Below, one piece after another: positions 38,911-64,000 of a DNA stretch of 64,000 bases. Location of the stretch: positions 62,001 to 126,000 of the forward strand of contig JAPDJV010000014.1 of NCBI GenBank assembly GCA_029258925.1, given 5' to 3'. Made by a program: the position numbers and the translations under genes. The DNA is from Thermoproteota archaeon (GTDB lineage: Archaea > Thermoproteota > Thermoprotei_A > EX4484-217-1 > JAPDJV01). How positions within the stretch are numbered: position 1 is the stretch's first letter; the number at the start of each line of letters is the position of its first letter. The notes below the pieces were generated by a model. It searched no databases and was not told where the DNA came from. It worked only from the letters and a program-made list of their open reading frames with translations.

Positions 38911-38973
38911 GTTAACTCAGTCCTCACACGGTTCATCATCCGTGTTCAGCAAAACTTATTCATCATCGTTAAC
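38911..38973 (-). ncRNA. Box C/D sRNA 1
   Basis: Minus-strand guide RNA for 2'-O-methylation. Box C ATGATGA at 38960-38966, a 10-base spacer, box D' CTGA at 38946-38949, six bases, box C' ATGATGA at 38933-38939, a 12-base spacer, box D CTGA at 38917-38920. The ends pair perfectly (GTTAAC at 38968-38973 with GTTAAC at 38911-38916). A TATA-like TTTATTTAA lies upstream at 38984-38992. The D guide is complementary to UCCUCACACGGU, with the fifth base (C) the predicted methylation site; the D' guide is complementary to CAAAACUUAU. Confidence 0.88.
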
Positions 38974-44340: not shown

Positions 44341-44784
44341 CTCTTGCTAGGGATGATGAGGGGTGCAATCGCTGATTGATGAGAAAAAATTCCTCTGACC
44401 GTCCAGGATTTAAAAATACTAGTCCACAACTATGTATGTAGGACTTAGTCAAATAGTGTAGAGTCCTTGGCACTCCAAAATGCCGTAACTTGAAGAATCA
44501 AGCATTGTTTAAACTTTATGTTATCTATAGAACAATTATTCTAAATATGATCGGGAAAACTGTGCATTTAGACGTCTTCCATTACCTGGCATGAAATATT
44601 AGAGTATCCGATCAGACGAACATGCCAATGAGACAAACGTGTCTAAACTACTTCATTCATACAGTATGCACTATATGAGGAGGGGCGTCTAAGGGCAATG
44701 ATCGGAGAACACGTAATAAGTTAGTGTATAGGTAATGAATCCTTGAAGTTCTGGGAGAATTATTGAGGAAATTGATGTATTAGC
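44341..44784. other. Intergenic region with box C/D sRNA 2
   Basis: 444 bases between the small membrane protein and uL2. The first 60 bases contain a box C/D sRNA. In the remaining part I see no ORF or RNA fold worth naming. Confidence 0.5.
44347..44402 (+). ncRNA. Box C/D sRNA 2
   Basis: Box C ATGATGA at 44353-44359, a 12-base spacer, box D' CTGA at 44372-44375, one base, box C' TGATGA at 44377-44382, a 12-base spacer, box D CTGA at 44395-44398. Both guide spacers have the 12-base archaeal length. Flanking GG and CC can pair to close the ends. The D' guide complements CGAUUGCACCCC and the D guide complements AGGAAUUUUUUC; the fifth base from each D box marks the expected 2'-O-methyl site. 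Start and end are approximate. Confidence 0.85.
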
Positions 44785-61309: not shown

Positions 61310-62824
61310 ATGCAGCTTCATCACGTTGCCTTAGCGCTGGGAGTCATGTTACTGCTAGCTAAAATAGGGGAGGAAAGCTTTAGGAGAGTTGGCATACCAA
61401 GCTTTATTGCCCCGATAATTGTGGGTTTACTTGTTGGACCATTTGGTATAGGTTTAATTGAAGTGGGAGATTTACCATTTATTGCACTATTTACCATTCT
61501 AGGAATAGATTTCCTATTGTTTATTGCTGGAGTAGAGGAGCTGGCTAAAATAACTCTTATGGAGAAGAATATTAAGAGAATGCTTTTCTCTAGCTTGATT
61601 CTGCTATTATCCTCGACAACCATGGTGTTTGCTGTGATGCATCTCTTATTAAGCATTGGTTTCTTCGAGTCTATAATAGTGGGTGTTGTAATGGGTATAG
61701 TTAGTCTGGGTCCACTGGTTAGGGCATTAACGGAGGCAGGTCTTTTAAGCACAGATGAGGGTAGATGCCTCATAGTGATAACCGCTTTCTCGGAGGCTGA
61801 GGGCATAATATTCTTTAACCTTGTAACGAGAGGCCCCTCACTCATGCTTTTCGTGTACACTATTCTAGCTGTAATCGGATTCTACTTCTTCGGGAAATAC
61901 CTCTTCGTGCACATAATAAGGATTGTAGAAAGATACATTTCGGCCAGAGAGGCACCGTTTGCCATAATAATTGCCTTAATACTGTTGACTGGGCGCCTAG
62001 CCGAGATATTGGGATTTAATGCAGCAATAGTAGCTCTGGGTCTGGGAATATTCTCGTCAACCTATCTCCTCAACAGGCCGGACATACTCGATAGACTTAG
62101 AGCATTCACATTCGGCTTTTTCGAGCCCCTGTTCTTCATCGGACTTGGACTCTATGTAAGCTATATTGGAGTGATGGACTTTATTTTAGGAGTCATTATT
62201 GCTGCCGTTGCTTCTATAGCAAAAATAGTGTCTCTAAGATATTTAACTCACATAAAGAGCCTGAATATTTTATCACTATCCCTAGCTAAGGGCGGTGTTG
62301 ACGCAGCACTACTGCTCATAGCATATAATGCCGGGCTGCTTTCACAATCTACATACACTTTTGTCCTGGTTTCAATAATCCTTATGGCCTTAGTCTTCTC
62401 CCTCCCAGTGAGAAGACACATTTTAGCTAGCGCCCCCATAGAAGCAAGGAAACTGACTGTAGCCGATATAGTTGGAGAGAAAATTTATGCATCCCCTAAT
62501 ACTTCTCTTGATGAAATAATTAGCGTCCTCGAGAAAATGAATGGAGTCGTAATTGTTGACGAGAATATGAGGCCAATAGGCATTGTTACGTCAGCCGACC
62601 TAATATATGTGGACCCGGCTAAAATAAGAAGTATAAAGGTGAGTGAAGTTATGAGAACAAATGTTCCAATAGTATATGAGGGGGAACACTTGGACGAGAA
62701 CGTCATAGAGCTAGTCAGTAGTAACCAAGTCGTAGCGGTCATAGACAGAGAGGGCAGACTTAAAGGAACCCTTTATCCTAGACATATTATAGAATGGCTT
62801 ATCACGAGCGGGCGCTTAAGGTAG
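61310..62824 (+). CDS. Cation:proton antiporter (CPA2) with C-terminal CBS pair
   Basis: 504-residue protein: residues 1 to about 370 form the antiporter membrane domain (LLVGPFGIGLIEVGD, GIDFLLFIAGVEEL, LTEAGLLSTDEGRCLIVITAFSEAEGIIFFN). The last 120 residues hold two CBS motifs (TVADIVGEKIYASPNTSLDEIISVLEK and IKVSEVMRTNVPIVYEGEHLDENVIELV) that may bind nucleotides and tune transport. ATG 61310. Confidence 0.87.
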   Translation: MQLHHVALALGVMLLLAKIGEESFRRVGIPSFIAPIIVGLLVGPFGIGLIEVGDLPFIALFTILGIDFLLFIAGVEELAKITLMEKNIKRMLFSSLILLLSSTTMVFAVMHLLLSIGFFESIIVGVVMGIVSLGPLVRALTEAGLLSTDEGRCLIVITAFSEAEGIIFFNLVTRGPSLMLFVYTILAVIGFYFFGKYLFVHIIRIVERYISAREAPFAIIIALILLTGRLAEILGFNAAIVALGLGIFSSTYLLNRPDILDRLRAFTFGFFEPLFFIGLGLYVSYIGVMDFILGVIIAAVASIAKIVSLRYLTHIKSLNILSLSLAKGGVDAALLLIAYNAGLLSQSTYTFVLVSIILMALVFSLPVRRHILASAPIEARKLTVADIVGEKIYASPNTSLDEIISVLEKMNGVVIVDENMRPIGIVTSADLIYVDPAKIRSIKVSEVMRTNVPIVYEGEHLDENVIELVSSNQVVAVIDREGRLKGTLYPRHIIEWLITSGRLR

Positions 62825-62904
62825 AGTATTTCACTTAATTATTAGATCATTTAGTAGATTCATCTTAAGCACATAATCATATGCATCAAAACCGTAAAAA
62901 CTTA

Positions 62905-62963
62905 GAAAATCAGTTCATGAATAGTTCATCACTGCTCAGCACTCGGCAAACTCATCACACAGT
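62905..62963 (-). ncRNA. Box C/D sRNA 3
   Basis: Minus-strand guide RNA: box C GTGATGA (62952-62958), 12-base guide, box D' CTGA (62936-62939), three bases, box C' GTGATGA (62926-62932), 12-base guide, box D CTGA (62910-62913). A TATA-like ATTTATAAG lies at 62983-62991, about 25 bases upstream of box C. The D' guide complements CACUCGGCAAAC, close to a conserved 23S rRNA segment (ACUCGGCAAA); the D guide complements UUCAUGAAUAGU. The fifth base from each D box is the expected methylation site. Confidence 0.92.
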
Positions 62964-63119
62964 ACTATTTCAGCTAGTTCTTCTTATAAATCCTACTATG
63001 CATAGGAGACCTGTGGCGACCGAATCCTTAGAACTTGTAGCAATGCTCTTCACCATTAAAACGTTAAGTATTTGTAGTTGATTTTTAATATGGAGAACGG
63101 TTTAAAATGGTGGTGTAGC

Positions 63120-63289: not shown

Positions 63290-64000
63290 ATGGTGCAGGT
63301 AAAACCCCCTAGACACCCATTTACTCTTAGAATAGTTATTCCAGCGTCAATAACTAGAACAGAGGCTACAATACAGCTCAAGAGCATAAAAATAGGTATG
63401 GTGGCTAGGGCAGCCAGTATTTACAGGGTAAGCGAGATCGTAGTATACAGGGATCCCGATGCAAGTATGAGAGACCTCGTACTATTAGAGGATGTTCTAA
63501 AATACCTCATGTTACCGCCCTACTTGAGGAAGAAAATCGTTCCGCTGAAAAAAACTTTGAGGGGGGTGGGCGTTCTTCCCCCTCTCAGAGCACCTCCACA
63601 TACTGTTTCAACTAAAATTGTTCCAGGCGAGTACAGGGTCGGCCTAGTTGTTAAGAGGAGACGTAAACTGTTCGTTGACGTGGGTTTAAGGAGGCTTGTC
63701 CCCCTCGTAGGAGAGGCTGAGGCTGGAACTATTGTAAACATTAAGGTATCTGTTTTGGGAAGAAAAATAGTAGCTGTCTTAGAGGAGCCGGAATTTTATT
63801 GGGGCTACAATGTAATCGTCGAGGAGAACTTGTTGAAAACTCTCTCCACAGAGGGACTCATAATAGCTACTTCTAGACGAGGTGTACCTATCAAAGAGGT
63901 TTTAGGAGATATAGCAGAGAGAGTGAGGGGAGAGAGAATGGTGTCAATAATTTTCGGATCACCTTATAAGGGCTTATACGAGATAGCTGATAGTGAAGGA
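63290..64000 (+). CDS. SPOUT-family RNA methylase (COG2106), partial at window end
   Basis: The frame from ATG 63290 is open to the window edge, so it is missing from the ORF track: VKPPRHPFTLRIVIPASITRTEATIQLKSIKIGMVARAASIYRVSEIVVY, then VLKYLMLPPYLRKKIVPLKKTLRGVGVLPPLRAPPHT. This is the archaeal family of predicted SPOUT methyltransferases often encoded just before uL3 and uL4. The C-terminal knot (IIFGSPYKGLYEI) is partly present. It would methylate rRNA or tRNA. Confidence 0.88.
   Translation, partial: MVQVKPPRHPFTLRIVIPASITRTEATIQLKSIKIGMVARAASIYRVSEIVVYRDPDASMRDLVLLEDVLKYLMLPPYLRKKIVPLKKTLRGVGVLPPLRAPPHTVSTKIVPGEYRVGLVVKRRRKLFVDVGLRRLVPLVGEAEAGTIVNIKVSVLGRKIVAVLEEPEFYWGYNVIVEENLLKTLSTEGLIIATSRRGVPIKEVLGDIAERVRGERMVSIIFGSPYKGLYEIADSEG

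Follow-up and report, generated by a model that had tools for sequence, protein, structure and literature searches.

Within the window (the whole 64,000-nt stretch of archaeal DNA that was analysed), a 465-bp gap separates a Na+/H+ antiporter gene with CBS domains, which ends at 62824, from a PF02598 SPOUT methyltransferase gene that starts at 63290. Inspection of this gap reveals on the minus strand (62958-62910), opposite to the strand of the SPOUT gene, a perfect box C/D sRNA in which all four boxes are exact: C (RUGAUGA) and D (CUGA) boxes enclose internal D' and C' boxes, as in archaeal box C/D sRNAs, and the spacing of 12, 3 and 12 nt is that of the compact type of archaeal dual guides. 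A first-pass annotation had placed such an RNA, with these boxes and this geometry on the minus strand, between the antiporter and SPOUT genes, and both points are confirmed; its span of 62905-62963 contains the sRNA, but the core occupies only 62910-62958, leaving five flanking bases on each side. The elements, read from the sequence unless otherwise stated, are as follows.

62910-62958, minus strand: sRNA core
62952-62958, minus strand: C box GTGATGA (orthologs keep TGATGA or a near form)
62940-62951, minus strand: D' guide GTTTGCCGAGTG, 12 nt (11-base pairing with the 23S rRNA of relatives, and conservation)
62936-62939, minus strand: D' box CTGA
62933-62935, minus strand: spacer GCA, 3 nt, from D' to C'
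62926-62932, minus strand: C' box GTGATGA
62914-62925, minus strand: D guide ACTATTCATGAA, 12 nt (9-base pairing, one G-U, with the 23S rRNA of relatives)
62910-62913, minus strand: D box CTGA
62983-62991, minus strand: TATA-like promoter element ATTTATAAG, 24 nt upstream of the C box
62880-62909, minus strand: T-rich stretch TTTTCTAAGTTTTTACGGTTTT, where transcription may end, judged from sequence only

The TATA box that had been assigned to the RNA is well positioned, and its 24-nt distance from the C box fits a putative RNA start a few nucleotides before that box; because the frequency of the 8-mer TTTATAAG in the window is that of chance (5 occurrences vs 5.7 expected, so that the count alone means little), what the element contributes as evidence is this position. 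An antisense open reading frame of 66 amino acids (62881-63081) had no Pfam match.

One could suppose that the boxes are a chance arrangement in an AT-rich intergenic gap, lacking any RNA function. The fold energy of the sRNA is ordinary (z 0.02), as that view would have it, though C/D sRNAs are not expected to show unusual fold energy. Against it, a generic strict C/D pattern, independent of the guides, found two sites in the window (the sRNA and 38917-38966) vs 0.0 expected in 200 simulated windows, such that a perfect arrangement is expected by chance less than 0.01 times per window; across the whole genome the strict half-pattern had three matches and its reversed-pattern control none. The conservation described below, of a module that moreover adjoins the same gene in distant families, already refutes a chance origin, which we regard as highly improbable. 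The genome also encodes fibrillarin (PF01269, E 3.4e-107).

The D' guide has a clear candidate target. In relatives, including one of the same order (G001), the 23S rRNA contains the segment GGGAACUCGGCAAA(U/C)U(A/G)GCCCCGUAACUUCGGGAG, and, counting from D', guide bases 2-12 form an unbroken pairing with ACUCGGCAAA(U/C), giving 11 contiguous pairs; only 9 of 300 shuffled guides equalled this pairing score. Thus the earlier proposal that the guide matches 23S rRNA just before CCGUAACUUCGGGA stands for 11 of the 12 bases, as inferred from relatives, while the base adjoining D' is unpaired, the rRNA having A there and not C. The same proposal had put a C opposite the fifth guide base, and this is what the rRNA of relatives offers: base 5 is G and forms a Watson–Crick pair with the C of ACUCGG. 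This C is accordingly the predicted methylation target under the fifth-base rule, near E. coli 1669: it aligns with position 1673 in the E. coli strain used, which is offset from K-12 by 4 at U1939, which would make it about K-12 position 1669 provided that the 4-nt offset already holds there. Dennis et al. (PMC4644070) report methylation hotspots in helix 61 and helices 68-71 of domain IV.

The match is inferred from relatives because the target segment is missing from this genome's own assembly, in which the 23S gene is cut, its first part ending contig C8 and its last part starting contig C9. Pattern and BLAST searches for the segment found no copy in the assembly, and a search of the organism's own rRNA for the guide complements, proposed earlier as a check, therefore meets a broken 23S, although the 23S of relatives does match. 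The sole exact match to CACTCGGCAAAC in the genome is the sRNA itself, and near matches were rejected as they lack the conserved 23S segment that should come next. At the start of contig C9 (L009, positions 1-524), 23S matches lie on both strands as an inverted duplication with the look of an assembly artefact, perhaps connected with the absence of the middle of the 23S. On contig C8 (L008, C8:58000-61996), the 16S gene spans 1948 bp vs 1478 model positions and a long AT-rich insertion lies in the 5' part of the 23S; both look like rRNA introns.

Conservation of the D' guide extends far beyond this genome. We scanned 229 genomes of the class for the module TGATGANTTTGCCGAGTNCNGA (C box, guide and D' box), allowing up to two mismatches and using the reversed pattern as control, and found it in 161 genomes, nearly always once, vs a control total of 2 matches. 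A further scan of GTDB used the exact pattern, with C permitted as well as G at guide base 5; it yielded 94 stretches, and the counts that follow come from 80 loci, 71 of them archaeal and nine bacterial or from Methanobrevibacter. The archaeal contigs include Thermoproteota of many orders, Thermococcus, Nanoclepta, Geoarchaeota, Calditenuaceae, Wolframiiraptor, a Methanodesulfokora and others; some contigs named for their bins (Heimdallarchaeota, Aenigmatarchaeota) may have been placed in the wrong bin. A second C/D module adjoins the guide in 65/71 archaeal contigs vs 0/9 of the bacterial or Methanobrevibacter matches, and base 5 is G in 71/71 archaeal contigs and C in 5/9 of the chance matches, figures for positions within the pattern being inflated by having searched with it. 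The C-for-G variant had been sought as a sign of compensated targets, and only chance bacterial matches carried it. The upstream flanks of the sRNA copies show next to no conservation, and a plasmid search with the gap sequence returned no match.

A module lies upstream of the guide in 11 of the 71 archaeal contigs, where the guide consequently appears in the D and not the D' position. At eight loci (L190, L192, L197, L204, L211, L213, L232 and L235) an upstream module with a guide such as GGATCAACC precedes the same guide; GGATCAACC appears to be the complement of GGTTGATCC at the 16S rRNA 5' end.

In one genome (G041) the 23S reads AACUUGGCAAA and the sRNA guide TTTGCCAAGT, with the target C changed to U and the facing guide base G changed to A; this is a compensatory guide/target change, though a single case. 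Three genomes of family f3 (G021, G015, G011) also have AACUUGG in their 23S, and neither the usual nor a compensated guide was found in them. In two others (G046, G150), whose 23S is altered to AACUCGGCCAAG, the candidate guides track the change poorly; guide base 3 is mismatched throughout family f4.

The D guide ACTATTCATGAA can form a nine-base pairing, including one G-U, with GCAUGAAUGG of the 23S of relatives, in which base 5 lies opposite the U of GCAUG. We consider this U, near E. coli 1967, its probable target, a weaker case than that of the D' guide, as the match is not significant alone (39 of 300 shuffled guides were as good). This last figure also bears on the possibility that the locus encodes a real C/D sRNA working through its D' guide alone, the D guide being an orphan or having a target outside 23S. 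With the D' guide fixed, D guides still vary from lineage to lineage, and orphan guides are described as common in archaea by Breuer et al. (PMC7994747), both of which are what D'-only use would lead one to expect. On the other hand, a CATTCATG D guide recurs in four other contigs (L173, L177, L187, L246), being shared by the genome's sister groups and a Thermofilum contig, and this genome's own change within the CATTCATG core keeps the pairing as G-U. We view use of the D' guide alone as a serious possibility, if the less probable one, and use of both guides as the favoured reading.

In two relatives the predicted sites are separated by 272-274 nt, or about 270 nt in mature rRNA, a distance that invites the alternative that the sRNA acts chiefly in chaperoning the folding of 23S domain IV, methylation being secondary. 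Widely separated 23S target pairs of this kind, those of Iho sR114 and Tte sR51, have been proposed to mark folding chaperones (Dennis et al., PMC4644070). The compensatory change in G041, where the target base and the facing guide base both changed, is consistent with selection for pairing at the methylated base, and the D guide changes in other lineages while the D' guide stays. A mainly chaperoning role is thus unlikely in our judgement, and guided methylation is the reading we carry forward.

The SPOUT gene is a recurrent neighbour. Among 68 copies examined, a few of whose regions had been picked knowing that a SPOUT gene was near, 16 have one no more than about 450 bp away, 15 of these 16 being divergent from it, and two more have one at 3-4 kb. 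As a control for the bias of searching with the guide we fetched 30 loci by SPOUT protein similarity alone and then scanned them for boxes independently of the guide; the scan gave 8 C/D matches, of which 6/8 carry TTTGCCGAGT. A protein search with the SPOUT gene against genome contigs found no match. The repeated association with PF02598 might suggest a regulatory element or leader of the methyltransferase gene in place of a guide RNA, but the sRNA usually lies on the opposite strand, divergent and about 220-420 bp off, and in most genomes the guide is elsewhere, some orthologs having no SPOUT gene near it, so that we give a leader very little credence and retain the guide RNA.

Taken with the boxes and the fibrillarin gene, the 11-base complementarity to the 23S of relatives, the conservation across archaea, the gene neighbourhood and the one compensatory change support this, and we hold it very probable that the locus is a stand-alone dual-guide box C/D sRNA gene whose D' guide would place a 2'-O-methyl group on a 23S cytosine. 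Once transcribed, the RNA would adopt C/D and C'/D' kink-turns and would be expected to bind L7Ae, Nop5 and fibrillarin. In the resulting RNP the D' guide would direct 2'-O-methylation to GGGAACU[C]GGCAAA of 23S, where domain IV begins (near E. coli 1669), and the D guide probably to GCA[U]GAAUGG, at a U close to E. coli 1967. The complex may in addition keep these two distant domain IV strands together as the rRNA folds.

The locus had been called new, and this holds for the locus itself; the guide, by contrast, is widespread and has a named relative. At gathering thresholds Rfam listed only tRNAs in the window, and at relaxed thresholds the best matches were several archaeal C/D families, none above its cut-off. 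The nearest named family is sR11 (RF01150), against which the window sRNA scored 23.5 bits in a restricted search, below the 39-bit cut-off. The sR11 consensus D' guide, guUUGCCcaguU, is nearly that of the window, sharing UUUGCCxAGU, and a Geoarchaeota contig (L174) with guide GTTTGCCGAGTG scores 54.6 bits vs the cut-off of 39; of the copies checked against Rfam cut-offs only one passed. The two D guides are unrelated, that of sR11 being AcaGUcGg. We take the locus to be an unannotated relative of a named kind. A possible eukaryotic counterpart is snoRNA snR62 (yeast 25S Um1888), which may guide methylation within the same 23S/25S segment, with a target base that may differ by at least 1. Plant and human equivalents of snR62 have been tabulated (PMC11542601). 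Literature searches by guide sequence returned unrelated papers only, apparently through primer matches.

The C/D sRNAs found by RNA-Seq in cultured archaea (Dennis et al. 2015, PMC4644070; review by Breuer et al. 2021, PMC7994747) have the same anatomy, follow the N-plus-five rule, include dual guides and show 23S domain IV hotspots. These papers emphasise fast guide evolution and describe no site common to all seven species, in contrast to the wide retention of this D' guide. It is the depth of conservation that is notable here, the RNA being otherwise of an ordinary archaeal kind. Retention of the guide in about 70% of the species of the class and in several other archaeal phyla points to strong constraint on the site. 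Whether this is among the most deeply conserved of archaeal methylation guides seems to us evenly balanced. On that proposal the cassette, at about one per genome across the Thermoproteota and also in Thermococci, Korarchaeia-like and nanoarchaeal lineages, would fix a 2'-O-methyl group in 23S domain IV, would have been present in an early archaeal ancestor, and would keep its guide while its partner is replaced over time and the cassette itself moves between D' and D positions. The conserved guide makes a role in domain IV directly testable, and it can serve as a marker in the annotation of C/D sRNAs, a class that is under-annotated.

Other C/D candidates occur in this genome. The second strict candidate in the window, at 38917-38966 (minus strand), reads ATGATGA-ATAAGTTTTG-CTGA-ACACGG-ATGATGA-ACCGTGTGAGGA-CTGA, and no convincing rRNA target was found for it. 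A further strict half-pattern, TGATGACTACTCCCGGATCTGACCTTGATGA, lies on contig C2 (104242-104272, minus strand). A third, looser box C/D candidate in the window (44353-44398, plus strand) has the guide GGGGTGCAATCG, and a C/D candidate beside the ortholog at locus L014 (from 1127, plus strand), AGGGTGCAAACA, resembles it.
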